DNA from: Ulota crispa
Taxonomy: Eukaryota > Streptophyta > Bryopsida > Orthotrichales > Orthotrichaceae
Reading direction: 5' to 3'
DNA length: 64,000 bases
Assembly: GCA_963920765.1 (NCBI GenBank)
Contig: OY987251.1
Coordinates: 15,722,830 to 15,786,829 of the forward strand
Made by a program: the position numbers and the translations under genes. The notes below the pieces were generated by a model. The model was not told the origin of the DNA. It saw only the letters and a list, made by a program, of their open reading frames with translations, and did no database searches. This document shows positions 25,625-64,000 of this stretch, piece after piece. Numbering within the stretch: the stretch's first letter is position 1; every line of letters begins with the position of its first letter.

Positions 25625-25849
25625 AGGATAAACAAACATTATAGTTAAAGGCGTTTAGTTGACATTTTAGGGGGGCGCTGTAGCTTGCCTCCCCTATAAC
25701 CCTATTATATCACCCAGATGTTTATGTAATGCACTTGAACCTCCTCAATACTTCAAAACGTGTGTTGCTTCTCCTTAAGTGTCCACACGGGCCTTCTCAA
25801 ATTTCAAAGATAGTCCTTTGATTTTATATAACTAGCATTAGTGGACCTT

Positions 25850-27780: not shown

Positions 27781-27782
27781 AA

Positions 27783-28889
27783 ATGGGTTGGTTTGTTCCT
27801 CTTGGAAGGAACATATTTGACTACGGTGCAGTGTTAGTTACAGATGGCATCCATTTGTACAGATTTAGTAACACTCAACGCGTTGCTTGACGCTATAGGG
27901 ATGGTTTGGTTCACGACATGTGTGGCCTAATTAGATCCAATTTGGTGGCCTTCAGGCCGACTATAGATGAGCATATAGCAAAGGTGAAGATTTATCCGTA
28001 GCTATGCCATGAGGTTTTGTCTGTGATGCAGAAACAGACTCTAGATGATTCGCCAGCTATCATGCTTACTATGCGTACCAGATTAGGCCATCTAGGAAGT
28101 TTGTTGGAACTTTGGGAGGTTATGCCAAAGGATAGGCGCAGAGCTTGACTGTCGGGTGTTCAAGTAGAGGTTACTGTTTGCACAAAGAAAGTTGTTGACG
28201 GTCGTCAACTTTCTTGTGAACTGAATCACTTGCACGTAGATGGCATAGAGGATGCATTACAAGCTTCTTTTCACACAGCCATCCTTCTTGTTGACCGATT
28301 TATGAGGACTTTCAGACAGAGATACTAAGAGTTTGCCCGGTTGGTTCACGATATGAACGAGTATGCGCCAACGGTTTGTATTTGAAGCGCCTTGACATTT
28401 GCTCATTCAGTGATGGGATGGAGCGGCAAAAACATGGCACGCCAACTAGCGGATGTATGGGTATTGAAGCTTGCAGAGGCACATTAGTGCGCTCTCAGAG
28501 ATGCACTAGACTTTTTGTATGATGGATACGAGCAGGATGGCAGACAAACTCGTGACCTCATTGTTGATTTTCTCAACAATGCACAATGGTTTGTCCATAG
28601 CAGAGCGCACAATCAGATTGTTGATGGACTCATGTTGAAGAAAGCAAACCAAGGGGGATATTGGAAGAAGGAAGGAGTGTATGTCGACCGTGTTGGTGCA
28701 GGGCGCTATTTTACAGGACTATTCAATGCAAATTGGAGAGATCATGTACAGTTCATTCCAAAGGCTGTAGTTCTAGAGGTTGTAGTTCCAGAGGGTGTAG
28801 ATCCGGAGGTTCTAGGCCCAGAGATTATAGCCCCAGTGATACATATTCCGCGTGTAGTGGAATTGTCTTCATCATCAAATGATATGTAA
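27783..28889 (+). pseudogene. 5'-truncated, broken relative of the 588-aa protein gene
   Basis: Throughout this stretch one frame aligns colinearly with residues from about 235 to the C-terminus of the 588-aa protein at 60767-62533. Matching landmarks are 'VPLGRNIFDYGAVL', 'HEVLSVMQKQTLDD', 'VEVTV', 'SALTFAH..MGWSGKNM', 'FLYDGYEQD', 'LIVDFLNNAQWF' and the end 'VVELSSSSNDM'. The last 124 residues (28515-28886) are uninterrupted. The rest carries several breaks, and the N-terminal two-fifths are missing. Protein identity looks roughly half. DNA composition is much more AT-rich than the intact copy, as expected from long decay. Treated as a fossil of a mobile element of unknown class. Confidence 0.75.
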
Positions 28890-28959
28890 TTGATTACATG
28901 TGACACTCTGGTACATTTAGTATATTGTATGGGATTACCTCTCTTTTTTACTATTACAC

Positions 28960-29520
28960 ATTACACTTGTATTTAGTGATCTTATCCCTTGATATTCATA
29001 TTCAAGTCCATGATTTAATCCTAAACAAACCTCCCCTCCAATTTTCTAAATCCTAAACCCTCTACCCATGTAACCCTAAACTCTATGATTGATTACTTGT
29101 ATGTGTACATCACCCCTAAACGCCTAAACCCCATGTAACCCCTAAAATCCCAAACCCTAACTTGCATACATCCATTTCCATTTGAAATAACAAGAACAAG
29201 ACCAAATCAGCATGGATTAGTCTATAGAAATTGTCCAATTTGACATTATTTTTGTCATTTTGGACACATTTAGTCAGTTTGGAAGTGTCAATTACAACAA
29301 AATTTCTTGTACTATTAGATCTTGACTGGATAATAGACCCCGTAACCCTAAACCCTCCAATTATACCCCTAAGAGTTATGTGACCATCTTTACTTCTTGA
29401 TTGGATAATGGATTCCTGTAACCCTAACCCCCCAACCTATACAACCAAGAGTTATGTGATCATCTCTACAAACCTGCAACCCTAACTAGTCCTAAACCTG
29501 CAACCCAAAAAAAATGTATC
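28960..29520. repeat. Degenerate CCCTAAA-type tract 3' of the truncated copy
   Basis: Motifs such as 'catgtaaccctaaac', 'cccctaaa' and 'aaaccctaac' are scattered through the stretch with telomere-like CCCTAAA spacing. A segment near 29220-29310 ('gtcattttggacacatttagtca') resembles part of the CACTA-type MITE at 47820. A similar segment is at 57100-57210. Confidence 0.55.
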
Positions 29521-29549
29521 TAAAAAAAAACTAAAACTTAAAATCTATA

Positions 29550-30200
29550 AACTTGACGTTGAACCGTGAAGCTCCAAGTTACTATGAATTGCCACTTTGA
29601 GAGAAATGAGTAGAAGGGTAGGAAATAATGTTCCGTTTCCCAAATCCAGCCGTAGGATCGTGCCATAGATTGGAAATGTACTTTTGAAAAAAAAAATCAA
29701 ATCATTCTAGATGAAAAATGAAGGAGATGTTTACATTTGAAGTGGAAAAGAAGGTTTTCATTTTTGTGCTGTCCCCCTAAAATTCACAACCCTTTGTCCA
29801 ACCTTACAAGAAAATAATTATTGCACACAGAGCTGATGTTTGTTTTTTCCATGTAGCAAACCGATGTAGGTTTGTGTGGGAGATTTCTCAATTATCATAT
29901 GGAACTGCACTACACATGGAGGACAATCATAAGTATAAAAAAAAAGTGGAGAATGACTCAAATAACTGAAATGCTAAGCATTTAATTACTAAAATGAGAA
30001 TTGCAGTTCATGATGGTTATAATGTTGTGATAAACCATCAAAATCTTTTGGTTTTGTTTTTTTTCTAAAATATTGAAAATTGAGTAAATTAATGGACTTC
30101 AAAGTTTATTTTAGAGTAGAGAATCCATAATTGTCCGCAAACAAAATCTCCTCATAACTTTCATCCCATTCATCAAAATGGAATGATTCAAAGCTCCCCA
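29550..30200 (+). repeat. Leader repeat of the telomere-associated element, second copy
   Basis: This aligns with the reverse complement of about 63250-63930, the non-coding region upstream of the 588-aa gene. Shared blocks include 'gccactttg.gagaaatgag', 'ccgtaggatc', 'aaatcaaatca.tctaga', 'atgaaggaga', 'gagctgatgtttgttttt' and 'taactttcatc'. It follows directly on CCCTAAA-like sequence. No copy of the ORF follows it, so it belongs to a different, ORF-less unit from the truncated gene at 27.8 kb. Confidence 0.75.
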
Positions 30201-30540
30201 AGTATATATAGATCTAAAGAACCAACTTCCCAAAATAAACTCAAAAAATGTAAGTTTAAACAAGTTCTTTGGCTCTCCTAAACCAAACAAAGAAAATTAC
30301 ATATCATGCAATAATTTTTGAACCATGAAGTCATAAGTTATGAAACTTGTTAGGCATAAAAGCTACTCCTTGATCACATCATGTGTGAAAATTTCAAAAA
30401 AAAAACTATAAAACCCATTGGTAATGAGCTGCCCAAAAACGCTATGTTGCCAAAAAAGGGTGTTTAGGCCTTAAGGAGTTAACCCATGTAACCAATTGTT
30501 CTATATCCAACTATAAATCAATTGTTTTGAACTGATTTGA

Positions 30541-30605
30541 TACCATCAACCCTAAACCACCCTAAACCCTAAACCACCCTAAACCCTAAACCACCCTAAA
30601 TCCCC
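30541..30605. repeat. Interstitial CCCTAAA tract
   Basis: Several units of CCCTAAA alternate with 'ccaccctaaa'. This is the C-rich strand of the plant telomere repeat on the plus strand. Confidence 0.8.
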
Positions 30606-31309
30606 ACCGTTCAAAATCTCATGTTTTCTAATTTGGGCAACAATTCAAAATATGGATTTTTGACTCCCATGTAATATTTCCCCAAAATCAAAATTTACCT
30701 AATGCCTAATCCCATGAAATTGTGTCTCGTTATACTTGTTGGAATAAAAAAAACTCCACAAATTGACCTTAAGACTCCAAAATATATGGTCACCCAAAGT
30801 AGCTAGATTCCACTGGCTAAATCCTTTACATCCTCCTAAAGCTTGCCCAAATCAAGGATTAAAAAAATGACACATCACCAAACTTCTCCCTTGTACAATA
30901 CAAGACATGACACCACCCTACCCATCCCATCCGCTCTCTAAGCCACTCCCCTCGTTTGCCCAACTTAAGACATTCTTCTCCTAATTGTCGAACAAATAGA
31001 ATATTTTCTATATTCCATGAAGAGTCTAGAGCAAAGGAGGCGCTTCAAGGAACAATGAGCCGATCATAAATTTTTCTCAAACTAGCAACTCCATTTGGAC
31101 TTGAGTGGTAGCCCAAAATTTGAGCTAAAAATGCCTCTTTTGTATACCCCTACACCCCCAAGCACCCCTTTTGGCCATATTGGGCTCCTTGGTCCTTTGG
31201 AGGTTCAACCATGGATCCTAAGTACACCCATCTACTAATACTAAACCACCCACCCTTTAAAAAAAATAAAACATGAAAAACACAAACTCAAAATTTCAGA
31301 CCCTTATCC

Positions 31310-31490
31310 AAAAAAGTCAGCCCTAAATCCAAAGTCAACGCTTTAATAATTCAAAATCTAAACATCATTAGGAAAAAAAAACACCGCCATTGGACTCAGA
31401 ACAGTTGATTTAGAGGGGGTAGGTCACCTCAAAACTTGATTCTAAAAAAAGAGTTTCCCTAGGATACCCATGTAACCCTAAACCCTCTAC
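31310..31490 (+). repeat. 3' end of a telomere-associated element joined to CCCTAAA
   Basis: 'aaagtcaacgct', 'attggactc', 'gggggtaggtc', 'gatacccatgtaaccctaaaccctctacc' align in order with the sequence 3' of the 588-aa gene (minus strand, about 60520 down to 60330). There 'aaagtcaacgc', 'ttggactcgc', 'gggggggtaggtcc' and 'catgtaaccctaaacc' occur in the same order. With the leader at 29550 it delimits an ORF-less unit of about 1.9 kb. Confidence 0.65.
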
Positions 31491-34400
31491 CAAAATTTAC
31501 TTATGGAACTACAAAACATCTATGTTGCAGCTCTCTTACAATTGCAAAACTACTACATTGCAACTCTCTTACAACTATTCTGATTCCGTACAAAGTGAAT
31601 TGACTCTTAACCACGTCTAAAATAATATGGTGGGAGCAAGTAAGGATTTGGCACTTGGCAAAAGAAGACCCTTTTACAATGGTATATGAGTGGGGACCAT
31701 GTAGTTTGTAGTTGAATATTAGGAGGGAATGTATATTTATGTCGGGCACCTCCACAAAGTTTTATGCTTGTTGGTCAAGTTGGGGCAATTTGAGCTACAA
31801 TACACAAAAAAATTCTAGTAATGCAGATGTAAGACCAATGAATACTATTGACATCACCAAAACTATCTGACATGTTGGATCCAATAGGTTCACAATGACT
31901 GGGATTCAGCTTGAAGTATTGTAGTGGTACTTAGTGGTATACAGTAGATTATGTCCTAAACAACTACAATTATAATTGTTTATAAAGTGCTATTTTGCAT
32001 GTTTTCTTCTATTGGTAGCATTATGTAATAAACAACAAAGGGATCAAGAGAAGTAATCAACATGAAAAGGCACTTGCTTACATTGACCAGTTGGTTCAGA
32101 AACAAGAAGCTGAACTAATGCAATATGCAACAATAAATTTCACTGCTAAGTATAGACAATACTACGGAACCTCTTCCAGAATCCTCAAAATCGTTTGAAT
32201 TTGCTAGTTTTTGTTCAATGAGGCCAAATTCAAACCTAAACTGAAGCTACAAGACGCACAAGGAAATTGGGAATGGCCGTGAGGAACAGCTACTATCAGA
32301 CCCTGGATTTGAAATAGAGTGTGAATATGTGGGAGTTTGGAATTGAATGGGGCTTGCTATGAAGACGGCCTCCTAAACCCAAAACCTAGCGTTGCATACA
32401 AAAGAAGACTTTACATCCTTTTGCCATTGTTATTTTCCGATGATAAATCCTTAGCAAAGCCTCCCTCCTCCAAACAATATTTTTCAAAAAACAAATCTTG
32501 GACATGGGAAAAGATGAGGAAGAAAGAGTTATGGAGTTACTTATCTCACCCCCCCCTACGCATTGACTACGACGGCCGCAGGAAAATTGGGCTACTCCTG
32601 GCAGCTTTTATTTTAGGAGAAATCCACCTTGGAGGCGCAACAAAAGGAGGTTTGTGTTGCCCTCGACCCCTGCTACCACTTCTTCTTGCTCCTTGCCTCC
32701 CCTCTGGACCTCAATGGTGATTGGGCTCCAATGTTTCTCCCTTCCAAGGATCTCCAATCAGCAACCCCCCTACCTTTTGTATGAAGAACACCCTTGTCAA
32801 TTTTTATTGAAAATCAGCAACCCCTCCGACGACTACTATCATGCACAGCTCTTCTCTCGCCACGCCCTTGACAACTCACCTCTTTGTCAATGACTTTGTC
32901 AATTTTTGCTTCAGACCATCCTAGGTGAACGATGTCTAAATTATGGACATGCATAAGAAGGGCGCTTTCATATCAACTAAAGAGATGCTGGGGTTAACCA
33001 AAATTGCAAATTATGGTTTTTGCTAAGGGAGGGAGGAAGTATTCTTCTTAGCTTCTTGGCCATAATGGACTTTCTACACTGCATCAGATTGTCTGTTGCT
33101 TGAAAGCTGTGGACATGACCCTTTAGAGCTCCTCCTTTGGGTGGGCAAATTGCAACTTTGTGGGTGACATTTGGAGGTATGGTAGTCGGGTTTTGCAGTT
33201 CTCTTGCCTTGAACAGACTGCGTCAAAGCAGTGTTTGCAAGTTGAGCAAGAGGAGCGCTCTAGAAGTGCAACCTTCTAGTTGAGCCTCCTTCCATAGTCT
33301 CCCCATGGTGATTGGTCGCACAATCTAGGAAGAATGTATTTTGCAATGAAGAATTGACCTCTGCGCTAAAGCCTCAAGGGTCACCCTTGCTTAAGCACTC
33401 ACTCCACCTAAAAATGTACTGCACATGCCTTCAGAAGAGGAAACAATGCCAGTTAGGGTCCAACACTCCAAAAGATCAAAAAGTATGAGGAGGTCGTTGT
33501 CTCTTACGAATCCATACGGTGTTGGTGAGGCTTAAAATGAAGCGTGCCTGAGCTTCAGTTGTGCTGCAATTGCCCAAGGGTGCAGAACTTGCTGCTCACA
33601 CTTCCACGCTGGCAACGTTGACTCCGCATTAGACATTGGCAACGTTGACGTTGCTGAATCCTTGCATGCACGAAATTGTAAACACTAACCACTTTCTCCC
33701 AACGTAGGCGACCCCTTTTGGAAATCATTACCGCGCCTCTCTCTAAAAGCACAAAAAAACCCTAAATTATACTCCTGCGTTATTGCCAAATCTGCTCTAC
33801 CGCAACCTATCCACTACTATCAATAAGCCTTGGGGCCATGCCACTCTTTTGCATTGAACCGCGCCACTCTCTTGAATTGAATTGCGCCCAGCCAACAGTG
33901 TGACGCGTCTCCCGCCATTTCATCAAATAGATGATGCCAGCACGGAGTGGAATCACATGTTGACCCTTGATTACACCCATTCTTCTTTTGGGTTCCCTAC
34001 TTAAAGCAAATATACATACATCGTATACTTGCCCATGTATAAACAAAGCTGGAAGATTGAAAAACAATCTGCAAACCCTAGCAATTGTTGCATATGGTCA
34101 AGGGAAACATAGGTACAAAGTCTTCCAAAGCCAAGGCAAAGCACAACATGGAAAGGCCTTCAAATACAAGCAAAACACCTTGTATTGGTCACAGTGGCAT
34201 GCTGTGTCTTTTAGGGGTTAATACACATGGATGAATAGTGTAGTTAATTTCTAAAAACTCTTCAAGGATTGATACTTCGTAAGAAGGCACTTTCAATATA
34301 CAACATTTTTCAATCATTCAATCATGTGATACTTGGAGGGACATATGCATATCATATGCTTATCAAGAAATAATTTTAATGACAAAGCAAGTGTGACAAA

Positions 34401-37700: not shown

Positions 37701-40700
37701 TTGTATCCAAAAGTTACCAGCTGCATTAGATGTTTTGGACAGCTCCAAAAAAAGCAAAACATTCCTTACTCATCCACATTCAGTCACAGATATCTTAAAA
37801 TCCACATGGCCGTTTTGGATTTTTTTGGTAGCACCATCTAGAAGCCTTAAAGTTGAAGATATTGTAGTGACCATTTCAATTTGATGTGTAATAATGATCT
37901 TGCAAGGACAATTCAGAAACTTCAAAACTGCCTTTCACAAACAAGAACAACACTTTTGGGCATTTAGAGGTTAAATTTGAATTTGATGAATTGGTGACAA
38001 TGGATAGTTGAGAAGCTTTCTACATTTATTGAATTCTTTGATTATTCTTTAAGTAATATCAACACATATTTATTAAAACTAGATAGATATTCTTTGGCTC
38101 ATTTTATATGCTCCAATGACAAGAACAATGTAAAATTTGCCTCTTTTTATTTCCAATTAAACTTCAAAGGAAACTTTGTAAAAACATTGTATAGGTAGTA
38201 TGGGTATTGTATTCACAATGAATATGTAATAACTTTTAAACCATACACCATCTAAATAAAAAATCTTTCTCTTGACTTTAAGATGTTCACCAATAAAAAT
38301 CTAGGCGTTTATAACTTATTCATACGGCATACATATCAACCCATGAAAGCACAGGTGGACGATAAATCATCTGCTAGCTTTGAAAAAATATTTTGTACAA
38401 AAGAAAAAACTCAATTCTTATCTGATTTTTTTTTCAAATATGATCATAAACACATGGTCCATCATGGAAGGCAAAATTAATCTCATCAAATACATTCATA
38501 TCTGTAAAATTGTTACAAAGTGTTTATTTTCATACTGCCTTTTTTGCAATTTTTATGAGGTCAACATGTATTGCTGACTTTTGTAGCTTTTAGGAACTAT
38601 AGTACAAGCTAGGCACCTGCCAAAGCACTATAGCTCTACAAGGCAAGGTAGGCCACGGATGTAAGCCCAATGATTAAGGGTTAAACATGCTTAGATGTGA
38701 TTGGTTTTTACTTGTTTACCATTATTTATTTCTAGTTTACATAGCAATGACAACCAGTAAATGTATAACAACAAGAAATCTTTTAGAAAACATCCAATGG
38801 AATATGATTTTGAAGGCATCTAATAGAGCCTTTTGCAAGTTTGTGGTTTTCTAAACTTTAACAATTGCTTAAATGGTACATATGATACAATAACTAGCAT
38901 CAAAAAAGTAGATCATATGATTTTTACAATTGTTAGGTCTTATTCATCAAAATCTAAAAAGTTGCCCAAAATCAATAGGTAGGAGAAATTATAATCTTAG
39001 CAAATAAAAAAAGTTTGACAATCTCAAAAGTTAAAAAATCATTCTCACAATTTTGCAATGAAAGATACCTTACTATTGCAGGGTTCTCTTTGCCACTTAT
39101 TACCATTTTAGAAGCTTAAGAAATAGTTTGAGTTCTCTAAAAAAATAATTCTTATACATCTAGAACAAACACAATTTGTGTGTATGTATGTACCTTGGGG
39201 GCAATCCAACATTGTCTACGATCTATATATTGGAAATCAAGGTCACTTTCGGTTTCAATATATCCTTTCCCCTCTGCATGAGAATCAAGCTGCTTCCAAA
39301 TGTTTGATTTACATGTCAATTTGGAATATATCACACGACAAAGTGCAACAAGTAACATAAAGGCACTTGTAATTTTAGGGTTTAGGATTTAGGGTTTAGA
39401 AATTTTTATGCTATTTATATTGAATTCATAATAAATGAAGGGAATTGATAAGGGCCCACTTTGGGTTTGATATATGCACACCCCTCACGGGGTAAATATT
39501 AGATTTTTACCATCAAAAAGCTGCATCTAAAAATCTTGAATTTAGATTTGGACTTAGAGACCTTGATTTTTAGTCTAGAATCATAAGTGAGGTTACAATT
39601 GAATAACACCAATGAAAAAGCCTAGCTTTTTTTACAAACAAAATTTTAAAACAATATTTTCACCTTTGGCAAAGCTTTTTTATTGGGTGATGTTCAATTG
39701 TAACCTCCTGTATGGCTATAGACTAAATTAAGGTCTCTAAGTCCAAATTTGAATTCATAATTCTCAAATTCATCTTTTTGATGGTGATAATCTAAAATAT
39801 ATCCCCAAGAATGTGCATATATCAAACCCAAGGTTTGACCTTATCAATTCCCTAAATAAATAAAATTTATTATCATTTCAATAGACTTTGAATCTCAATA
39901 TGTAAAAGATAAAGACAATGAAAGAATGTACTTTTCTTGTGAAATCTGCATAGAACCAAGAACCCAAATGTGTTACCATGGCTCCGGTATCAAGGGTAAG
40001 AGGCACACCACTTGTAAGAGGGTAGTGAGTTTTGCCTTCAAATATAATATAGTTTAGTATGGCATTCACTGCACACCATAACCTCCTGCACTCTTCAACA
40101 AAAAAGTAGCATTATTTAGTGGTGCTAGGACAAGGTCAATGCTCTAAGTGAAGAAAACAAAGTTGACCATATTCAAGTATTGACGATAAAAAGATATTTC
40201 ATTTAACTAGACCTGAACACAAAAATAGGAGGAGATCTTGACATTATTGCAACTTTTCTCTTACAAAGGTGACCTTATCCAAGCATCATTATAATTTGGG
40301 TGAAACATAAATTAATAAGAGCCACTCAAGGAATAATACTTACTTTTTTGTTTGACAAGTTTTCACAAAATCTATATCAAAACAATTACTCTTTTTTGAG
40401 ATCATGAAAAAGAATTATTATATATTGTTTCTCTACTTTAAAAAAAGATTTGCAACAACACATGAATGAATTCTCGCTTCAAAGTTCAACATCAAATGGA
40501 CTAATATACAACTTCTAACAAGTCCTTTGTATTTTTTTTATTAGGATGCTCAAATTATTGAGTTAGATACCCTTTGTTGAAATTGATCAAGTTTTGAATT
40601 GAACTTATTGTAATTGATAACATTGAGTAAATTTAAGATTGATACACATGAAATTGATGTTGTCATTGAATGAAACATTATACCAAAATATCCACAAAGG

Positions 40701-43700: not shown

Positions 43701-46700
43701 TGCTTCATTTCATTTTGAGACAAACAAAAATTTCATTTGTCTAACTCTTTTGTGTGTTCTTTAACCCTTTTTCTTTTGTTTTTCAAAGGGCACAAAGTTG
43801 TCAGAGACATAAATTTATATACAAAAAAATTTAAAAGATAAAAATTCACTTTTGGAAGTGGCAACAAACAAACTTGTTTTCAAACTTCAAGCATTATGAT
43901 CTTGCAACTACACAAGTTTCAATTTTTCATTTATTGCGTCTTGTATTAATAGTGCTAATTTGCACTAATCCAAATAGTATATGAATAATTTGGAAGGCAC
44001 CTTACTGAAGTGGTTTGTAGTAATTTAGATTAACTCAATATACTATGGATTACAAAATTTGATTACTACCTCAAAAAGCATGAGTCAAGTGGCCAAACTT
44101 TTGAGAAGATTTAGCAAGCATGTATCTCAACTGAATAGAGAGTGTGAAAAATGTTCCATTATAGGAAGGGTGCCACCACATTGTTACTTGACAAACAACA
44201 AAACTTTGTGCTCAAAACTTTACTTAGAGAGCAATGGCAAACAGCATGTCACACCTTCACACTAACTAGACAAAATTCACCAAAACAAAAGTGAAGGGGT
44301 CTCTCATTTTTTAAAGTCTCACACTAAGAAAAATAATTTGTGCAATACCAATTTGTTCTAAAAATGAGGGGTGTACTTGAACAAACTCACAAAAATATAC
44401 AATCCTCTAATTAGACCCATCAGTGACTTATTTAGAAAAAGTTGGAGGTTTTAGCCTTGCTTTTGGGCAAAAAAGAGTATTTCATAAATAGGTTTGGGAC
44501 TCAAAACACTTAACCCTTAAACGACCAAACAACCATAGGGGATAGTATGTATGGTGCCGTATGACTCATTTGCTACCTACAAATAGGTTTAAATTTGCAT
44601 CTTGACTAGCTCACTAGAACCGCATTGATCTATATTCTAACTTCTTTGTTGATCTCAAATGTAGTAATGCTATGGGTGCATCCCAAATACAAGAAAAATA
44701 CATTGTATTGTATTGCTTGCTAAGGCATGCTCAGACGTTTAAGGGCTAAGTTTGAATTGTTGTTAGTAGTGTAGAAATTGAAATACATACATAGTTTGTG
44801 TGTGTGTGGCAATTACCCAAGTACTCCTTGCCCTGTCACTTCCATTTTGTCTGAGGTTGGTAATGTGAAGCTCTCCCAATAATAAGTACCCCTGTGTTTT
44901 GATCCGTCTCCATAATCAATCCATGCTAAGCATTCTAAGTTGTGATGAGTATCACATGGTCTATACCGTCCATGAGGATAGTGTTGGTGCTTTCGGCATA
45001 ATGTTTTGTCTTTTCCACAACACTTTATTGGTTCCATGTTCCTTGGCTTAAAATATCCATGAGGTCCCTGCATCATCACAATTAACATCATTTCCATTGA
45101 CTCCAAAAGGCCCAAGTTCTTTCTTCTATAAAAGACATTAAAAACCACCACTTTTAGGGGAATGGGTAGAAAGGAAGGAGAAAAGTTTTTTCTTGAACTT
45201 TAACCATAGGATCTTGCCCTAGATTACAAGAGGTATTTGTGGGAAAAAAATTAGCTCACTTTAGATGGAGAGGAGTGAGATATTGACACCTAAAGTGAAG
45301 AAAAATAATTTTTTTTCCTTCTTGCCCAAAAATTTCAGAAGCCTTTGACCACTCTTATAGCAAAAGAATTGCTTTGCACAAAGTTGAGACTTGACTACTC
45401 AAGGTAAAATGACCTCAAATGAATTGGAGGTGTATAACATACTTCAAAAAATCTTTGAATGCCAGAAGGTTGTAAATTTTGCAAATACATGAGGCAAAAT
45501 TGGAGGATTTATGTAAAATTCAATAATTTGAATTACAAGGATCCAAACATTGAGAACCAAGGTATCCTAATCCACTACAACTTGGAAAAAAATCAAAAAC
45601 AAACACACAAACTGTTAAAAAATGTAGAGTACCAAATTTTCCAAGAGGCAAAAAGAATGGACGTAAGGAGTCTTCCAAAAAGAGCCCCTTCCACTTTATA
45701 CCCCTTTGTCTGAGTGTCCACACCTTGTGCCCATGGATAGGAGCTGACCCTCTTTGGAGTCAAAACTCACTTACAAAAAAGAAACTTGCCCAAACTGCCT
45801 CTCCTCCCCTAGTTTTGATATATTTTTGCTCAACTTCTTTGTTAAATGTTGGAATGAAGAAAAAATTAGATGGCTACAAAGGCATTTGAATTCCCATTCA
45901 GTTTGATAAAAGTTTCAAAAAATCACACAAACTAGTTTAGCTATAGGAACATGCCAAAATCCCACTTGGCCCTCAAGGGGCCACCTGGGCTTTTAGAAGT
46001 TAACTTGTGAATGCCCAACCAGTCATAATGTTTGCTCCTTCATAGTGCTCTACAACAACATGGCAAGTGCCCACCCATTGTAAAATTTGTAATAGTCAAC
46101 ATTGCATGATGGCCTCACAAAAATTGCAAGAAGGGCACCATGAGACCTAACACAATGTCTTTGAATTTTCTCACAATTTGGATTACCCAAAAGTCATGAG
46201 TACATTTGGTGAGGTTGTTTTTTGCCTTCCATGATGAACCATGTGTTTAAGATCTTTTCCAAAAAAATCATATGAAAAATGGCCTATTCTTGTTTTGCAG
46301 ATATTTTTGTCATGCACAAGATGAAAAACATCCCATTGGCATGTAAGGATCAAAAGTGCACATGATGTTTACGAAACGCTTTTAATATTTCAATAAAAGT
46401 GTACACAATGCTTTTAAAATATTGTCATCCTTGCAGAAGCAAAGCCAATATTGCCACAATTGCTAACACATTCACAAATCTTTTTTAATTTACATACAAA
46501 CATATAGTGAGAAAAAAAAGAAATCATTATCTATAAACACAAGAATAAAACTAAAAATTAAAAACCTTTGCTTTTAGAACTAGAATCTAGTATTGTTATA
46601 AATGCTAAAAAACATTAATTGTTTAAAATATTTGCAATTGGTCTTTAAAGCCTTACAAAGAAATGTTTATGACCTCCATCAAATGCTTTTAAAGGTTTGT

Positions 46701-49700: not shown

Positions 49701-51797
49701 GTTTGAGCAATGTCCAAGGGGGTTTTGAGTTTCTTTGAAAAAAATCATACAATTTTCATTTATGACCAATTTTATTCATTCATGCTTAAAAGAGTGCATG
49801 TATTAGGTATATGCTCAAATTGCGACCTCTTTCCAAAAGTGTCAAAATAATTAGCTAAATAATGGATATGAAGTGGTTTTTTAATGAACCTATGTTATCC
49901 ATTAAATGAATAGAAGATAAAGTTTACTTTATTGCAAAAGCCAGTCATATTTGGTTTTACCTCATCTCATTACAAGATGCACGTAAACAACTTTTAAGAA
50001 ACCTACAAGTCACAAATAGGTGCCTACTACAAATCTATCAAAAATTCATCAATGACTCAATAATGCTTCAAAAAATATGAAAAAAATTGTATTACATTTG
50101 ACATCTTATTTTTTGGGTCTAAAATTAGACAAAAAATCTTCTTGCCTTGATAAGCCCATGAAAAAGTAAAGTAGGTTTTATAGTGTTGTTTTTTTAATAA
50201 ATTAGTTTACTGTACAATACCCAAAAGAAAGTCTACATACTCCCTTTTTAAGGCATTCAAAGAAGTTTGCTTAATACAAAACATAATTGACATTTTATCC
50301 TCAGATTTTTTGTATGTGATCCTCAAGCAATCTTAATCAAGCACACCAAACTCCAAATACTAAAAACCATATTCCTATTTTTGGTAAATTAATTTGTGTC
50401 AAAATCATGGTTTTACAAGAAAGTTGATTAAAAAACATTGGCATTGAATTTTTGAGATTTGATTGCATGGATATGTTGGAGACATCCATACGCACATCTT
50501 TCTTCCAAGCAAACATTTCCAAACCAATTCCAAAAGAATTCTAAAAAGAATTGATTGTTAGAGTGATCATAACCAAATTTAGTAAAATATATACTTCTTC
50601 ATGAAAATTAGTTTTTGGCAAAAGACTCATACATTGTGATAAAGTTTGTACCTTTAAACGTGATGGTATGTCTATTTTGCCAAAAAACTAATTTTCATGA
50701 AGAAGTATATATTTTACTAAATTTGGTTATGATCACTCTAACAATCAATTCTTTTTAGAATTCTTTTGGAATTGGTTTGGAAATGTTTGCTTGGAAGAAA
50801 GATGTGCGTATGGATGTCTCCAACATATCCATGCAATCAAATCTCAAAAATTCATTGCCAATGTTTTTTAATCAACTTTCTTGTAAAACCATGATTTTGA
50901 CACAAATTAATTTACCAAAAATAGGAATATGGTTTTTAGTATTTGGAGTTTGGTGTGCTTGATTAAGATTGCTTGAGGATCACATACAAAAAATCTGAGG
51001 ATAAAATGTCAATTATGTTTTGTATTAAGCAAACTTCTTTGAATGCCTTAAAAAGGGAGTATGTAGACTTTCTTTTGGGTATTGTATTATAATTTAATAT
51101 TTCCCAAAAGTTTAATCCAATTTTTATTGGCTGACTAACATTTCAACCAATTTTTTTGACATTTCATTTGCTTGACTTTCTAAAGTTTTTTGGATCTCCC
51201 TACTCACCGGGTTTGGACAATTTCCAAAGTATTTAGAGTTATCCAAGCACATAATAGTGAAAGTGGGTTAAGTCAAAGTCGAATGATGTTATTTTGTGAG
51301 CGTAAAATAGTGAACCCATGAGCAGTGAGCCAAGATTTGTGAGCAAGAACCAATTTTGAACTTGAAATCAATGGAATTTTTAAAAAATAGCAACTTTTTT
51401 AAGAGATGAACATTTATAATGAACAATTATATAGCCCTAAGTACACTTATATAGGTGATCTTTAATATTTTGACAAAAAAGTTAGATTCATGGCTCACCT
51501 TCCACGATTGTTTTCAAAATTGAGTTCAAATAACGGATGTGACAATGTCCTACGTCTCCTACCATTTGCTCTGCTGCCCTGGTGCCATGTCTCATCTTGG
51601 CTCCCATTTGGAGACTGAATGTAATTATGACTGTACAAGGGAAACAAAAGTCCTGGCGACGTCCTTAGTGGAAGGTCACTTCTAAATACAACTCGTCTGG
51701 AGTTCCATACAGAAATGAGGATGGCAGTGCTAAACCCCACAAGGGCAATTACCAATCTGAATTTCCGACCTTCCAATTGTTCAAAGGGCGTGGGACT
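34733..51797 (-). CDS. Pepsin-like (A1) aspartic protease, nucellin/nepenthesin type, nine exons
   Basis: Nine exons on the minus strand join in phase with GT...AG borders and no internal stop: 51499-51797, 48157-48286, 44817-45067, 40885-41154, 39932-40085, 39194-39289, 36296-36424, 35667-35781 and 34733-34815. They give 508 codons plus TGA. Landmarks, counted from the first exon listed: a hydrophobic signal-anchor or signal peptide (about residues 13-31), catalytic 'VIDTGSDSTW' (Asp about 121), flap 'DYGDGS' (Tyr about 195), 'DGIIGLG' (243-249), second catalytic 'LTLDTGAMV' (Asp about 349), 'FPSITFCF' and the C-terminal 'MRDYLIEVD...RVRWQPNNC'. This family cleaves proteins in the secretory pathway, wall or vacuole. 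The second site reads DTG where many plant members have DSG, which is acceptable chemistry. The first listed exon starts at an acceptor (tttgcag|AGT), so a 5' exon is missing. A candidate is at 52652-52720. Introns reach 3.7 kb and hold several transposons. Confidence 0.85.
39370..39402. repeat. Short interstitial TTTAGGG tract
   Basis: 'agggtttaggatttagggtttag' is a short, slightly degenerate run of the telomere repeat. It lies just outside the foldback at 39440, within the protease intron. Confidence 0.6.
39440..39852. mobile_element. Foldback/MITE-like element in a protease intron
   Basis: The ends are inverted copies: 'gggaattgataagg', 'tgggtttgatatatgcaca' and 'gaggttacaattgaa' on the left are matched by their reverse complements on the right. 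The middle retains 'ttagagacct' / 'aggtctctaa'. The arms are clearly diverged. It lies between protease exons 39194-39289 and 39932-40085. Confidence 0.7.
45160..45410 (+). repeat. Leader-repeat fragment in a protease intron
   Basis: The order of blocks 'gaatgggtagaaaggaaggagaaaa', 'ccataggatcttgcc', 'tagatggagaggag', 'cccaaaaatttcaga' and 'gaccactcttatagcaaaa' matches the leader at 29590-29800. It also matches the fragment at 11615-11650. It lies between protease exons 48157-48286 and 44817-45067, less than 100 bp from the latter. Confidence 0.6.
47820..47976. mobile_element. CACTA-type MITE (157 bp) with 3-bp target duplication
   Basis: It starts CACTACAAGAAAG and ends CTCTCTTGTAGTG, so the termini are inverted repeats beginning CACTA. 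The direct repeat CAA flanks it on both sides (47817-47819 and 47977-47979). The interior repeats 'gtccaaattga' type motifs. It differs from the MITE at 3901 and shares interior motifs with 57100-57210 and 29220-29310. Confidence 0.8.
50213..51086. mobile_element. Near-perfect 874-bp palindromic foldback element
   Basis: The arms 50213-50623 and 50676-51086 are reverse complements over about 410 bp. I found only a single substitution (near the 'cattgccaatg' block) and a one-base length difference. The loop is about 52 bp. The outer ends read 'tacaatacccaaaagaaagtc' and its complement. Each arm contains the same 61-codon frame (the KKDVRMDVSNISMQSNLKNS region, in opposite orientation). That frame is also recognisable in the foldback at 20607-21587. 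It lies in the first large intron of the protease gene. Confidence 0.9.
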
Positions 51798-56399: not shown

Positions 56400-59300
56400 T
56401 CAAGAATTATGCAATGGGGCTTATTAATTAAATATGTCTTTTCATGTCAATCTATACATCTTCTACACTTGATATTGCATTTAGGTTGCCTTGACAATTA
56501 GGTTGCCTTACATTGGAAAACTACCTCATGACTCACCACTTGGCCACTTGGAGGTGCATGCAACTTTCTAGAAACTGGAGTTTCACATGACTAGTAACTT
56601 AATAGCTGCTATTTTGTGGTTCTAGAGCTTCGTTGTTGTTGCTAGACCTTTTAATATTTTTTTATTGCAATAATTGTTGATGAATATTATTGTAGCAGAG
56701 GTAAATATTTAAATAGTGTAAAATGTAAAGATATTTGCGTGAGGCAACCTAAACACAATATTTAGTGTCATTTTAGATTTCAAATTCAAATTTGAAAAAA
56801 ATTCAAAGGGATTCATTTCAATTGTCTTTTTGTCTCCATCCTCACTCCTTTGTATTCAATTCAAGTTACAAATTAAGAGCTATCAAATAAGGTTCATTAA
56901 AATTGTCCTTTCATCTTCCAAATATGAGGTAAATCGGTCATTATAGGTTGCCAACGTGAGTTTTTAAAATTAATTGTAGATGTTATGTGTTGTGAACTAC
57001 CCAGCTAATACAGTTGCCCAGCATTGTATTCTATTATGGAACTTAGATACAATTTATTGGATTTTTGAATTAATTTCAAGGGAACATTGTCAAATTGGAT
57101 AGTTTTTGTAGGTTTGGACATCTTGATTTGAATAAATTTTTGTCATTGTGGACAATTTTAGTCATTTTGACACATTTAGTCAATTTGGGCGTGTCAATTT
57201 GGACTCAATTTCTAGTGACACGGCTTGGAGATATTAGATTTGACCAAAATACCTCAACCTTTGAAGAATCCAAAATCTTGTTGGCTTGTTATATGAACAC
57301 CCATGTGTATTTATGACATTTATGCTCTTGAACGACCAAACATCAATCAAATTGTAACCTTTTAGTTATTTTTTGTTGTTGTTGTTGCTGCTAATAGCTT
57401 AGATAGCCTATCTACATGTCCTGGAATGGTTCATTTGCCTAAATCTTCCAGAGCACATTGTTTTTTTAAAATTAGATTCATTAATGTTTACCACTTGAAT
57501 ATTGACTTGCAAAAGCTTTGCTTGTTTGTGCAACTTTGAGTAGAGGGTGTTATTAACCCTTAAAGATGCAAACATTTTTTTGATGAATGACAAAAAGACA
57601 ATTTATTGGGTGTATGAAAGTCAATTTTCATCCATTTCACCTTTAAAGGCCTAATAGTTTCCTCAAGGACAAATGGATTTTGGGCATGAACCTGTAGCTA
57701 AATTACTCAACGTGATTTTTTGAAACTTTTATTATAGGTGGAGAATTTCAATACTTACAACGGGATCTAAGTTTTACTTCATTCCAATACTTGAAGAAGA
57801 AGTTATGTAAGAAATTTTAGAGCCTGATGGGAATGGGCAACAAGGATAGCAACTTTTTTTGTCTAGTACTTGAACAGATGTTCATGTTGCCCCTTGGATT
57901 TTGCTTTGCCTCCAAAAACATGCAGATTTCAATCTACTTCTCCAATGACAATGACAAAATATAAAAGTCTTTGACCTACAATTACAAAGCCCAATAATAC
58001 CGCTAGATAAGCAAAACGTGATCTGCCACAATCTATGCTTGATGCAGAGCATTTAGGAGGACAAAGGTGCAAAGTCTAGCCAAGACATATGCCACTAAAA
58101 TCCCTACTATGATGTACAATTCCACTTTGTGTTGCGGTTTTCAGGTATCGTGATAAATTGCTGATTCCCATTTTTTGGTAAAATGAAAGCTATATTGGAG
58201 ACATTTTGCAATGTCAAGTTGTGCAGTTGATTTTGAATTATGGGAAGACAATGTTGGAAACCAAATTTCACAAGAACTTTGATGGGTTGGGACTACTCAA
58301 ATACTTTCAAAATTAGAAATGTATGGCAGCCTTGTTTTGTGCAGCTAACTTCAGATAGCAAGCTTTTGTGTTTCTGGTGCAGAGCCGGGTAGACACTTGA
58401 GAAGCCATGTCTTACTTTGTACCACCATGCAACTATGGCATGGTAGAACACAATCTCAGACGCTTTGAACATTGTCACCAGGTGAATTTGCCCTTTCTTA
58501 AGTGACTTAACCTCAAGTTTGTCATTCATTTTTCTCACAATGAGCCATCTCAACCAATACACATGTGCTTCTCAGCCCCTTTCTTTTGGGCCTCATGGGC
58601 CCAAAAAACATCACTTGAAAAAAGCAAGCAAAAAAACATAAGGGAAAATAAAGAAAATACAATAAAAAATAGCCAAACAATAGTTTAGGGTTTTAAGGGG
58701 CACGCCCAAAAAGCTTCAGCCTTGGCCGTAGTTGTTGCCACTTCTAGAGATTGTGCAACATCTCTTATTTTACTTTAGACGCTATATTGCTACAAGTTGC
58801 AAGACAACCTCGCCTCCATGAATGAGTTTTTATGTTTGTGAATATTCTAACATTTGCAAATATGGAACTGCATTGTCTATTTTCTTACAAAAAATCTACC
58901 AAGTGCTAGATGACATCATTATTTTTAGAAACTTTGCCCTTTTTGCTTGAATATAATTGTCTCTAGTCCCTAGAGAACTCAACAATTTTGAGAAGTATAG
59001 CCACTTCAGTACAAAAAAAATTCCCTCAGTGCCAGAAACTGTCACCAATTTTTAGCACACTATGCTAGATTCACCATATCTACAATTCACCATATCTACA
59101 ATTCACCATATCTACAATCCACTATTGCCACCACAATTTATTGATAGATATGAAGTACTCAACCTGTGGGCAACGGTTCAAAATTCAACGTAGCCAGTTT
59201 GGCTTTTTGCCAAAAACCAAAAAAAAGAAGCTGATGCTTTTGCTTAATCTTGGGACTTATGTTGAAATCAAATACGTGTTATTAAGAAGAGTGCATGTAA

Positions 59301-60300
59301 CTTGAGAATTGCATTACCCTATTATGGAACAAAGCTTTTAGTCTTGTTGTTGTTGCTAACTTTCCACTAACATTCAAATGAGACATTGATTCCAGCATGC
59401 GTAGATAAACCTTTTGAAACCGTTTGACATAAACAAATAATATGGTGTCTTTTTTGTGTAGCCTGACTTTCCTCAAGAATCAAGGAATCTCACTCATCTG
59501 ACCCTTGAGCCTTAATATTGGCATATTAGAAGCTAGCCTTATATCAGAGGCGGAAGTCTTGTCTGCTTTAGAGGTTCACTCCTCTCTTTTCATTTTGGTG
59601 GAATTGCCCTTTATATTTATTATGATTATTATCAAGTACTTTTTGTTGGCTTCAATATAGTATTTATAGTGATTCCCTGAAAAATGGAACTGGTGACTGT
59701 ATTTTCAAAGAAATTAGTGCCACAAACATATGCTTATTCATAATTGAAATCCTAGTACAATTGATGTTTTCTCCACAATACTATCCATTGCATGTGCTGT
59801 GCAATTTTGGACACCACTGCACTGATTAGTGACCTGACCACATCCACCTTTTCAGCCATGTGTTTGACCATTCATGTTGTTAACAATACAACCATTCAAA
59901 ACATTAAATCAGCTGCATTACAAAATCATATCTAGCAACATGTCAACATGAAGAAAAGAATTGTAAGCTCACCAGCATTGAAATTGCCAGATGATCATAA
60001 ATTTGGATGTATCATGTAATCAAAAAGCCTTGTCATAGTGTAGGAACAATAGTGGGCCATTTGCAGCGGCTCCAAAGATGGAGCGTGACAGCCATATTTA
60101 AAGAGTACCAATGCTATGGCGGCAGTAAAGTTTGCATGCTTAATGAACAAGTGTGATGCACATTCTTTTCTCATCCTCTACTTAAAGATTCTCACTTGGA
60201 ATGGAAACCAGAATTTTGTTTAAGGTAAACATACCCAATTCCGTCATTTTAGCCTAATCTTGGTGCATACATACCAGGAAACCATTTTAGACTTGAAATC
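56400..60300. other. AT-rich intergenic; MITE-like remnant at about 57100-57215 and 3 x 17-bp repeat at 59073-59120
   Basis: 57100-57215 resembles the interior and one end of the CACTA MITE at 47820 ('gtcaatttgggcgtgtcaattt...tagtg'). 'attcaccatatctacaa' repeats three times near 59075. A minus-strand frame at 58293-58562 has a possible donor but no recognised domain. Confidence 0.4.
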
Positions 60301-60308
60301 TGAAATCT

Positions 60309-60350
60309 AGGGTTTAGGGTTTAGGGTTTAGGGGTTTAGGGTTTAGGGTT
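60309..60350. repeat. Interstitial TTTAGGG tract, left boundary
   Basis: About six units of TTTAGGG on the plus strand include one GGGG variant. On the gene's strand it reads 'ccatgtaaccctaaaccc' immediately after the element's 3' region. Confidence 0.9.
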
Positions 60351-60766
60351 ACATGGCCATCCTATCCAAATCAACTTCTTGGGATTGAGTTTTTGGGGGG
60401 ACCTACCCCCCCATTTTCGATAGCTGCGAGTCCAACCGTGCAATTATTTCTTGATACAATATCGCGGTTTGGGAGATATGAGAGCGTTGACTTTTTGAAG
60501 GAGGCGTTGACTTTTTTTTAAGGGTTTTTTTTAATATATACATACAACGCAAAGTGCGACAGATTTTGGGAGTGAAGGAGTGCGCATTTAGTGGGATCAT
60601 AGATGTTCATCTCACGAGGACAGTAGATTTAGAGGGAAAAATGGCATTCAATATGTGGAAACATGAAACAAAACAAGCATTGGGTTCAGGGCCAAGTCGA
60701 TGGATTATGCAACATGATTCAATATAGGGCATTGGAACAAAGTGTAAATTGCGCTAAAGAGATTGT

Positions 60767-62533
60767 CTACATAGACTCCGACGAAGAGGAAAGCTCGATG
60801 ACGACTTCTGGCTGCTCTGGCACGTCTTCGGGCATCGGGTCCGGCGCCACGTGTTCCGGTGCCGGGGCGGCTGCAACGTGCTCGGGAGCCGGGATTGCGT
60901 CGACGAACTGAACATGCTCACGCCACCTAGCTCCATACAATCTAACGAAATGGCGGGCTGCACCAACGCGATCGTGATACACTCCTCGCCTCGCCCAGTA
61001 CGCATGGCCGGTCCTCTTTCGGAGCATCAGCGGTTCCTGCGTACGGTCACTTACCCGGCCATAGAGAAACCAGCGAGCGTGGGTGAGGAAATCAACTATC
61101 AAATGACGCATGGGTAACGGGTCCTGGTGGTAACCATCATATAGGAAACCCGGAGCAGCTGCTTGAGCTTCCCGTCGTCGAACTCCCTCTCTCCAGGCTT
61201 TTGCGTCTGCCATCTGTTCTCGCATGTTCTTGCCACTCCACCCGACCGCATTGCGAGCAAACGTCAATGCGCTTCGAACACGAATCGTTGGCCTCCCGTC
61301 GTTCGTCCCATGGATCTCTCGAGCCAGACCTTCCACCCTCGCGCGGAAATGTTGCAGGAAGGTGTCGATCTGCAAAAACCGCACACCAAACGGGCCTCCT
61401 AACGCGTGCTCGATGCCTTCGATGCGCAAGAGGTTGAGCTCCGATGCAAGTCGACGGCCCTCGACCACTCGCTGGGCGTGCACGGTGACCTCGACTCTCT
61501 CACCCAGCAACCGCGCCCTTCGTCTCTCGGGCGTCATGGCCTCCCAAAGCGAGCACAGACGGCGGAGGCGTAGGAGTCTGGCGCGCATGCTCGCCACCGT
61601 GCCGGGCATGTCGTCGAGGGTCTGTTTCTGTATGGCAGACAGGACCTCGTGCACCACCTTTGGGTACATCTTCACCTTTTGCACACGCTGCTCTTCGTCG
61701 AGCTTCAATTGGACGGAACCGACGTCGTCGATCTCGCACATCTCGTGCACGCGTCCCCTCTTGAACCGGCGAGCTGTGCGCTGGGCGGGGCTGAACTGGA
61801 ACAACGTCAATGCATCCGTGCGCAAGACGACCCCGTAGTCGAAGACGTTCACGCCGAAAGGGACGTACGGGCCCACCTCCGCGTGATACCGATCAATGAA
61901 GCCATCGATCGTGGGCTCGGCAAACGGGATGCCCCATTTCATGCCGAAGAACTGGACCCTGCAAATGCGGGCTCCGAGGGTGTGGATGGTACGCGACATA
62001 GCCCAGATGGGAACGTTGACCTGGTTCTTGGACAACGTGAGGCTGCTAGAAGCACATGTCAAGACTATGTTGAAATGGGAACGTAAGAAGGTGGTGACGG
62101 CATCCTTGAACCTCTCCCTGGCAACGTCGGTAGGGCCTGCGAAGACTTTGACCACTATGGGATCAGACACGACGTGCAACCAGTCGTCAAAGTCGGTATG
62201 GTCTTTCACCTTCACCTTCCGATTTGCTGGACGGGCCATGATACCGAATAAGTCGGGCAAGTCTAGGGAGAGCATGTTGAAGCACGCGGCGTCGACATCC
62301 ACATCGTTCGGGTTATTGTCATCAGGGTAGCGAGCTGCATCCACGAACGGGCCTCGCAAGGGCGGGAAACGGGGTTGGACGATATTCGGCAAGAGGGAGA
62401 CGTCGACTTCGGGTAGCAGCCTACGTAACGTGCGATCACGTAGATAGGCTACTGGTAGATCCGCCATGACGGGAAGAAGTGGGGGGGGGGACGAGTAGAC
62501 AGGGAGGTTCAGGCGACGGTTCACAGCAATCAT
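60767..62533 (-). CDS. 588-aa protein of unknown family, core of a telomere-repeat-bounded element
   Basis: A single uninterrupted frame starts at ATG 62531-62533. It is far richer in GC than the surrounding DNA. I recognise no domain. There is no zinc knuckle, RT, DDE or protease motif and no signal peptide. The N-terminus (about 1-100) is Pro/Asp-rich. The middle has 'FDDWLHVVSDPIVVKVFAG' and 'HTLGARICRVQFFGMKWG'. The region 250-420 is very Arg-rich and probably helical. Residues 470-545 are the best conserved with the 27.8-kb relative. The C-terminus is a Pro/Ala/Glu-rich linker ending 'PEVVIELSSSSESM', which has the form of a SUMO-interaction motif (hydrophobic core plus Ser/acidic flank). 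That role is inferred. It could be an ORF1/Gag-like nucleic-acid-binding protein or a novel accessory protein. It looks intact here. Earlier in-frame starts are absent. Confidence 0.7.
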   Translation of the reverse strand: MIAVNRRLNLPVYSSPPPLLPVMADLPVAYLRDRTLRRLLPEVDVSLLPNIVQPRFPPLRGPFVDAARYPDDNNPNDVDVDAACFNMLSLDLPDLFGIMARPANRKVKVKDHTDFDDWLHVVSDPIVVKVFAGPTDVARERFKDAVTTFLRSHFNIVLTCASSSLTLSKNQVNVPIWAMSRTIHTLGARICRVQFFGMKWGIPFAEPTIDGFIDRYHAEVGPYVPFGVNVFDYGVVLRTDALTLFQFSPAQRTARRFKRGRVHEMCEIDDVGSVQLKLDEEQRVQKVKMYPKVVHEVLSAIQKQTLDDMPGTVASMRARLLRLRRLCSLWEAMTPERRRARLLGERVEVTVHAQRVVEGRRLASELNLLRIEGIEHALGGPFGVRFLQIDTFLQHFRARVEGLAREIHGTNDGRPTIRVRSALTFARNAVGWSGKNMREQMADAKAWREGVRRREAQAAAPGFLYDGYHQDPLPMRHLIVDFLTHARWFLYGRVSDRTQEPLMLRKRTGHAYWARRGVYHDRVGAARHFVRLYGARWREHVQFVDAIPAPEHVAAAPAPEHVAPDPMPEDVPEQPEVVIELSSSSESM

Positions 62534-63960
62534 GTATTGGAGACGAGTAGATGTTGGATGGCAATAAACGTTTGCATGTGTCAGACGTCCTTATGTAGTA
62601 GTCGTGCTTTTCTATAAATAAGAATGATCTCATGGTAAAGACAAGCTCATCGCCAATTTTAGGAAAATGTCTAATTTTCAAAAAGGGGTTTCGTCTAAGA
62701 ATGTGCGTCCGTCTTTTACTTTTGAAGTGAAGGGGGGGGGGGTTCATTGACATGGCGATAAAGTTCAGGCGATTTTTAGGGAGTGGAGAATGTTATAAAT
62801 TACAGGCGTCTTGTGAGCAAAACTCTCAGTGCAGCTGACAATAGAGTGGACGTTCAAGGTCTGGGTGTGAAAAGGTAGATGTGTGGCCGTACAAATCAGT
62901 TCAGGAATTTAGGAAAATAATATTTGATGAATGGGGGAATTTTGTTTGTAGCCCATGAAGTCCCAGACGTCCTTTCCGGGATCACTCGGGATTCCAGGGC
63001 ATGTATCTGTAGGTACCGTAGTTTATGTGAGTTTGGGGATCTTTCTTTGGAGGGTCCTATGGAATTCCAAGACCTGCACGGGAATTGTACTGTTCCTGAA
63101 CATTTTGACGTTTGCCAACGAAGAAGGCTTGCAGTAGATTTGGGTGCCCGGGGGGGTTCAAGGCGTTACGAAAGGGCCAAAAAATTCAGGAAGAATTGTG
63201 GGCATAGAAGCTACGAACCTAAAATCAGGGTTTAGGGGATTCGGGCATGTGCAAGGAGCTATGCATCATTGGGAATTTCAATGGATGAGATGAAAGTTGT
63301 GAGATGTTTAGGCTGGGGGCAATTAGGGATACAGTGGTCCGAAAAGAACTCGGTTTAGGCATTCATTGGGCTGATCTTCGAGTGTTTAGGGAAAAATAGA
63401 AATCCAAGGGAGTACATTTTGTACCACAACATTTATAACCGTTGGTCAATTCACATTTTAGAAATTGCATGCTTAGCAATGAAGTGATTTGAGCTTCTTT
63501 CACATTTGTTTTGATTAGGACTGTCTCCCCTGTGTGGTGCAGTTCCATACGATAATTGATAATTGTATCACATAGACCTACATTGGTTTAGGGGACATGG
63601 GAAAAACAAACATCAGCTCCGTGGGGAGTGATAATTTTCATGTAAGTGTGGACAAAGGGTCATGAAATTTTAGGGGACAACAAAGAAATGAAATCCTTCA
63701 TTTTGCACTGCAGATGTAGACGTCTCCTTCATTTTCTTCTAGAGTGATTTGATTTTTTTTTCGGAAGCACATTTCCGGTCTGAGGCGAGATCCTACGGGT
63801 GGATTCAGGGAACAAAGCTGCATTTTGTAACTTTTCACTCATTTCTTCCAAAGTGGCAGTTCTTGGTGACTTACAGGGAGAAAAGTGAACGGGACTTCAC
63901 GATTCAACGACAAGTTCTTTGGGTTTAGGGTCCATTTTTTTTTTAAAAAATTCAATTCTC
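62534..63960 (-). repeat. Leader (5' non-coding) region of the telomere-associated element
   Basis: About 1.4 kb lies between the gene start and the right-hand TTTAGGG tract. Its distal part (63250-63930, reverse complement) aligns with 29550-30200 and, in part, with 11590-11945 and 45160-45410. It contains no long frame on the gene strand apart from a short upstream one that overlaps the start (62436-62753). Confidence 0.65.
62608..62622 (-). promoter_or_regulatory. Possible TATA element upstream of the 588-aa gene
   Basis: 'TATTTATAG' on the gene strand lies about 80 bp before the ATG. That spacing would suit a pol II promoter with a short leader. The plus strand reads TATAAATA, so the direction is ambiguous. 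Confidence 0.25.
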
Positions 63961-63974
63961 TTTTTGGGGTTGCA

Positions 63975-64000
63975 GGTTTAGGGTTTAGGGTTTAGGGTTT
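63975..64000. repeat. Interstitial or terminal TTTAGGG tract, right boundary
   Basis: More than three perfect TTTAGGG units run to the window end. The orientation matches the tract at 60309, and also matches what a right-hand chromosome end would show. It cannot be told whether the array continues. Confidence 0.85.

Follow-up and report, generated by a model that had tools for sequence, protein, structure and literature searches.

The layout of units ending at telomere repeats is best known from fungi, insects and rotifers. In Magnaporthe oryzae, MoTeR1 and MoTeR2 are described as alike at the 5' (860 bp) and 3' (77 bp) ends and unrelated in between, the middle of MoTeR2 being 786 bp long and, in this account, of no obvious function; MoTeR2 is without a reverse transcriptase (RT) and presumed to use that of MoTeR1, and the elements form head-to-tail arrays with telomere repeats between them (PMC7367193). 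The FoTeRs of Fusarium oxysporum are reported to lie with their 5' end toward the terminus, to have C-rich repeats after their 3' end, and to encode an RT and a restriction-like endonuclease in an open reading frame (ORF) of ~3.5 kb (PMC12857005). Terminons and endonuclease-deficient Penelope-like elements are reviewed as carrying a C-rich repeat at the RNA 3' end, forming chains of units, and including extra ORFs (PMC12477314). In the 64-kb stretch of DNA analyzed here (referred to as the window), we found three units that end at telomere-like repeats, tentatively referred to as A, B, and C, the last of which encodes an intact protein of 588 residues. They resemble the MoTeRs, the FoTeRs, Penelope-like elements, and HeT-A in layout, and are not members of these groups by the features tested. 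Judging from their sequence, we consider it somewhat probable that A, B, and C are one family of telomere-attaching retroelements, in which members without RT would be mobilized in trans and carry a gene of their own. TTTAGGG, the repeat at their ends, is the plant-type telomere repeat.

Unit C, which lies on the minus strand, is flanked by two TTTAGGG tracts in one orientation, both on the plus strand. The tandem-repeat call gives six copies with 94% matches for the tract at 60308-60350, and 3.7 copies with 100% matches for the tract at 63975-64000, which ends at the window edge. With at most one mismatch, TTTAGGGTTTAGGG has 12 matches across the window, where 0.02 are expected by chance; seven of the 12 are exact, and five of those seven lie within the two tracts. 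Both ends of unit C fall inside 3.6 kb, and its parts are as follows.

60308 to 60350, minus strand: C-rich telomere repeats (CCCTAAA on the sense strand) beyond the 3' end, from the repeat call and a string search.
60341 to 60356, minus strand: 3' junction, CCATGT followed by AACCCTAAAC, an exact match to A and B.
60357 to 60766, minus strand: 3' untranslated stretch of 410 bp, the last part of which matches the 3' end of unit B.
60767 to 62533, minus strand: 588-codon ORF of no recognized family, with a better start context at codon 23.
62534 to 63966, minus strand: leader of 1433 bp, of which 63255-63966 is common with unit B.
63967 to 63982, minus strand: 5' junction, CCTAAACC followed by TGCAACCC, an exact match to B.
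63975 to 64000, minus strand: telomere repeats before the 5' end, up to the window edge.

No terminal direct or inverted repeats of the kinds that end long-terminal-repeat elements or terminal-inverted-repeat elements were found in unit C, where self-BLAST at E ≤ 0.01 paired the telomere tracts only; for very short terminal repeats the check was visual only. Neither was any poly(A) seen between its 3' end and the repeats.

Using the whole of unit C as an nhmmer query against the window (E < 1e-9), we found five other stretches, at 30198-29472, 29120-27772, 45436-45092, 11882-11602, and 31491-31299. Three of these sit at 27.8-31.5 kb, in units with telomere-like borders, namely copy A (27774-29081, including the same 3' junction as unit C) and unit B (29491-31483, plus strand), which follow each other head to tail, both on the plus strand. 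The remaining two are leader-only fragments; since they reach neither unit end, they are weak evidence on borders. The features of these relatives are listed below.

27774 to 28889, plus strand: copy A, protein part, from the protein alignment.
29066 to 29081, plus strand: 3' junction of copy A, from a string search.
29082 to 29490, plus strand: spacer between A and B, from self-comparison.
29491 to 30198, plus strand: 5' junction (29491-29506) and leader of unit B, 72% identical to unit C.
30199 to 31298, plus strand: middle of unit B, without a match to unit C and with a telomere-like tract at 30548-30600.
31299 to 31491, plus strand: 3' end of unit B, with its junction at 31468-31483.
11602 to 11932, plus strand: leader-only fragment without a telomere border, from nhmmer.
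45092 to 45436, plus strand: leader-only fragment without a telomere border, from nhmmer.

Units B and C match at their two ends and not between them. The outer leaders, about 700 bp, align at 71.6% over 742 columns (E 2e-96), and the 3' ends are matched by nhmmer at E 7e-10 and by blastn over 73 bp at 75%, while the 1.1-kb middle of B has no match to the body of C at E < 0.1, and its six-frame translations gave no protein family. The middle is thus exchanged, with the ORF in A and C and none in B, around common ends. Because the tract at 30548-30600 splits its middle, B is possibly a pair of units. When the window was searched for collinear repeat pairs (E cut-off 1e-5), the list contained pairs from tandem arrays and not B and C, and so is no control either way.

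The units also stop at the same bases. Exact copies of the 3' junction string CCATGTAACCCTAAAC occur at three sites in the window, which are the 3' ends of A, B, and C on the expected strand; allowing up to three mismatches adds a single match, with three mismatches. Exact copies of the 5' junction string CCTAAACCTGCAACCC occur at two sites, the 5' ends of B and C, and the three further matches with up to three mismatches all lie in the telomere tract, at 60310-60347. Telomere repeat makes up roughly half of either string, the element-specific parts being CCATGT and TGCAACCC. The 3' junctions of A and B are identical over 19 bases. As the 3' stretches of A and C otherwise barely align, the 3' end of A rests on its position, its strand, and the junction string. 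In all three units a C-rich telomere repeat, degenerate in A, directly follows the 3' end at the DNA level, so that the sense strand enters CCCTAAA there. When the junction patterns were run against viral contigs, the 5' pattern had no match and the 3' pattern matched two contigs, the first of which, a phage as judged by eye from its ORFs, we regard as a chance match.

These results bear on the initial annotation, made from the letters of this DNA. It had placed a gene, a 1.4-kb leader, and a short 3' region between two TTTAGGG tracts in the same orientation, as we also find, and the diverged partial copies it saw elsewhere in the window correspond to our five nhmmer stretches. Its view of the whole as a unit of mobile type is supported by reproducible ends at telomere repeats and by the match of B and C at the ends and not in the middle. 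It had named copies lacking TTTAGGG at their borders as evidence against it. Such stretches do exist, in the form of the two leader-only fragments among the five, and carry little weight, being internal; the other three belong to units with telomere-like borders.

The ORF of unit C (62533..60767, minus strand) runs for 588 codons from its ATG and 607 from stop to stop, compared with a longest stop-free run of 406 codons (mean 201) in 500 order-2 Markov shuffles of the same stretch. By the rule of start-codon context, the first ATG is poorer than codon 23. Against the left flank (57000-60290), the ORF is rich in GC (0.587 vs. 0.358) and in CpG (observed/expected 1.13 vs. 0.24). The predicted protein has an isoelectric point of 9.5, five cysteines, and an acidic end with a net charge of -10 over residues 540-588; a pattern scan found no CCHC zinc knuckle in it.

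Searches of Pfam, NCBIfam, and PHROGs with the intact protein at E ≤ 10 returned no family, which fits an orphan protein and agrees with the earlier call of an intact, GC-rich gene of no recognized family, for which a profile search had been proposed. A single match to a PDB sequence (E 0.94) was taken as chance. So was a Stf0 sulphotransferase match in Pfam, which was obtained with the read-through of copy A (E 0.0045, 17 bits vs. a cut-off of 22) and is absent from the intact protein. There was no tblastn match among phages and plasmids, and no relative was confirmed among viral and prokaryote contigs, where the protein gave 1 and 11 pattern matches and the A/C alignment gave 112 and 42; as these are phage, plasmid, virus, and prokaryote collections, the misses say little about eukaryotes. 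AlphaFold2 models were too poor to use, with a mean predicted local distance difference test score of 33.4 from one sequence and 36.5 for residues 217-588 from two sequences.

Comparison with copy A shows that the protein has been under selection. The fragment of A at 27774-28889 (plus strand) covers residues 217-588, the last 372, at 45% identity, and its frame is interrupted by six stops and nowhere shifted. Over 368 aligned codons, A and C differ at 141, 132, and 229 sites in codon positions 1, 2, and 3 respectively (chi-square p 2e-14), which points to past protein selection on the ORF; the first 337 of the 376 alignment columns are ungapped, which leaves residue matching little room to shape the alignment. 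The nonsynonymous divergence (dN, NG86) is 0.48, and NG86 yields no value for the synonymous divergence (dS), fitting saturated silent sites. The gene and the 3' junction have therefore been together for long under protein selection, as expected of a resident gene and not of a recent capture. Three of the stops in A are TGA facing CGN codons of C, and could in part be accounted for by C-to-T loss at CpG. Between the two proteins, a proline-rich linker is variable and the C-termini are alike (VIELSSSSESM in C and VVELSSSSNDM in A), the conserved tail resembling a SUMO-interacting motif in its pattern. About 1 kb upstream of copy A lies a 168-bp tandem array (25827-26813, 5.9 copies).

Compared with the MoTeRs, units B and C similarly have common ends (5', about 700 bp; 3', 73-190 bp) around unrelated middles. 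Unlike the MoTeR pair, however, both are RT-less, their common ends have diverged (72-75%), the repeat is TTTAGGG, and the middle of unit C encodes a selected protein of 588 residues. The C-rich telomere repeat that follows the 3' ends of A, B, and C is a likeness to FoTeRs and, at the DNA level only, to terminons and other Penelope-like elements, whereas neither an RT and restriction-like endonuclease, as in the former, nor a Penelope RT and hammerhead ribozyme, as in the latter, was seen in our scans of the window. HeT-A of Drosophila, to which unit C had been compared in the initial annotation, is also RT-less, has one large ORF, and attaches by its 3' end, but its Gag has zinc knuckles and Drosophila is without telomerase repeats, whereas the 588-residue protein has no CCHC motif and TTTAGGG is present here. 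HeT-A is not the closest comparison, and MoTeR2 and the rotifer terminons fit the layout better. The same annotation saw no RT or zinc knuckle, which our motif scan and Pfam searches of 31 window ORFs uphold, and proposed either an undescribed class or a non-autonomous partner; the latter is possible. The layout is one already known from MoTeR2 and the FoTeRs.

The run of the sense strand into CCCTAAA in A, B, and C is what would be expected if a G-rich telomere overhang primes on a C-rich RNA tail. In such a mechanism, the element RNA would end in CCAUGUAACCCUAAACC, and this tail would anneal to a 3' overhang of TTTAGGG, either at a chromosome end or where an interstitial tract has been nicked. 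The RNA would then be copied by an RT acting in trans, and telomerase or repair would add a new TTTAGGG cap to the complementary DNA. The unit would sit with its 5' end facing the chromosome end, the orientation reported for FoTeRs (PMC12857005); tails of this kind are described for terminons (PMC12477314). More speculatively, the basic 588-residue protein might be the packaging or targeting protein of the element, Gag-like in role and not in family, and its tail, if it acts like the SUMO-interacting motifs it calls to mind, might guide it to SUMO-modified nuclear proteins.

Several observations weigh against this reading, which is based on three units in one window. Within 64 kb, A and B (plus strand) are oriented opposite to C (minus strand); the two sets therefore cannot both retain their original placement at a single chromosome end, and at least one must be interstitial or rearranged. 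Copy A breaks off at its 5' side (27774) without a telomere repeat, and the spacer between A and B (29082-29490) is not a clean telomere tract: seven CCCTAA are scattered through it, along with a duplication of 75 bp and a sequence that recurs at 57.1 kb. Further, no RT was found by the motif scan or by Pfam, the latter covering 31 of the 100 window ORFs of at least 80 codons from stop to stop, including the 588-codon ORF, and an RT-bearing partner is therefore hypothetical. The only RT-motif match in a stop-free stretch was FSDD at 32433, and its ORF has no RT family. The 3' ends also fold no better than shuffled sequence; of 200 shuffles, 50 equal or exceed the fold of C, 191 that of B, and 35 that of A.

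Strand composition belongs on both sides of this account. Strand-asymmetric G-runs have been described for telomeric retrotransposons (PMC10088271; PMC12477314). We counted G-runs (at least three G) on the TTTAGGG strand vs. the other strand in 12 stretches, which were picked after the layout was known, and compared some of them with background windows that overlap and leave out the elements and 55.0-56.45 kb. The leader of C has a ratio of 35:4, reached by none of 1018 background windows, and the C ORF and 3' stretch have 41:20 and 10:1. The A-B spacer (12:0), the A 3' stretch (3:1), and the three unit B pieces other than its leader (4:1, 19:2, and 3:1) lean the same way, the 19:2 at 30602-31298 being reached by none of 1063 windows; the two outer flanks are near even (12:14 and 23:16, plus strand). 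The B leader has no clear bias (5:2, reached by 439 of 1063 windows), and the A ORF fragment shows the opposite trend (3:9). TTTAGG occurs in the C leader ten times on the plus strand and once on the other, a skew reached by none of 2000 order-1 and none of 1000 order-2 Markov sequences; as the part of the leader common to both units has six telomere-like hexamers in C and one in B, this is no family trait. A strict quadruplex pattern has no match in the body of C, and five overlapping matches on the TTTAGGG strand of unit B in a range that includes the tract at 30548-30600.

The main rival explanation, which we consider rather unlikely, is a subtelomeric block like the Y' elements of Saccharomyces, which are gene-bearing repeats adjoining telomere tracts. 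Here a gene-bearing segment would have spread between tracts by recombination or break-induced copying, with no RNA step. Such a history would fit the telomere-like repeats, all in one orientation, that adjoin C on both sides and A and B on the 3' side, as well as the lack of an RT in the window scans, and recombination between tracts could also have set A beside B. However, the common segments stop at fixed junction bases, at the 3' end in three units and at the 5' end in two, and B keeps both ends around a different middle, whereas recombination would more often leave flanks and internal parts in common; such common ends around an exchanged middle, and a 588-codon ORF in which Pfam finds no helicase, set these units apart from Y' elements. 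If instead the ORF is an ordinary gene of the host that by chance lies near interstitial telomere repeats, and A is a pseudogene of it, the intact, GC-rich, and selected ORF would be explained, but not the junction string retained downstream of the ORF in A, nor the leader and 3' end without the ORF in B, and we regard this as extremely improbable.

Two further alternatives also involve retroelements. In one, a site-specific non-LTR element, acting in the manner of TRAS and SART in Bombyx, would cut existing TTTAGGG tracts and insert there, whether these are interstitial or terminal, and the same-orientation flanks of C, the opposed directions of A/B and C, and the presence of short interstitial tracts elsewhere in the window (e.g., 39374-39399) are all compatible with that; layout alone does not separate such insertion from attachment to an end. 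As no endonuclease was seen in the 588-codon ORF or the window scans, no RT was seen either, and poly(A) is missing between the 3' end and the repeats, we find it quite unlikely. Still less probable is that the 588-codon gene is one of several ORFs in a long unit of a larger terminon or Penelope-like chain, since unit C has both its ends within so short a span and neither an RT nor a hammerhead was seen. At the gathering score, Rfam gave no RNA family in the window, and no hammerhead was among its four matches at 60200-64000 and five at 27700-31600, all with E ≤ 10 and below that score. We retain attachment to telomere ends by RT-less elements as the favored reading.

Elsewhere in the window, the interstitial TTTAGGG tract at 39374-39399 lies 40 bp ahead of a 415-bp inverted repeat (39439-39853, 76%). 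Near-perfect palindromes at 20606-21586 (981 bp, 96%) and 50213-51086 (877 bp, 97%), ~77% alike in part, are probably fold-back elements. Among other ORFs, 8388-8726 (minus strand) encodes a RING finger (Pfam zf-RING_2, E 1.9e-6), 24845-25624 (plus strand) has a SWIM-like CxC...CxH pattern seen by eye and without Pfam support, and a frame of 402 codons from stop to stop at 21720-22928 (plus strand) has no Pfam family. There is no tRNA in the window.

Among the literature matches listed, there was no report of this element. Telomere-associated elements are described as rare in plants by a 2025 review, which names a Penelope-like element in Selaginella and, in Silene, the subtelomeric Retand, and states that no Drosophila-like telomeric retrotransposons had been found in plants (PMC12477314). 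It is possible, and we suggest it only tentatively, that a lineage whose telomeres consist of TTTAGGG, most likely of land plants, has a telomere-attaching retroelement system with at least two common-ended types, one of them relying on an orphan protein family, and that this protein, and not RT alone, may direct the RNA to chromosome ends, perhaps through an interaction with SUMO. Should the host be a plant, the units would add a further plant case, in which the ends are bound by TTTAGGG, the middle is exchanged, and an orphan protein is under selection, and would provide a candidate for a telomere-homing protein that belongs to none of the known Gag families.

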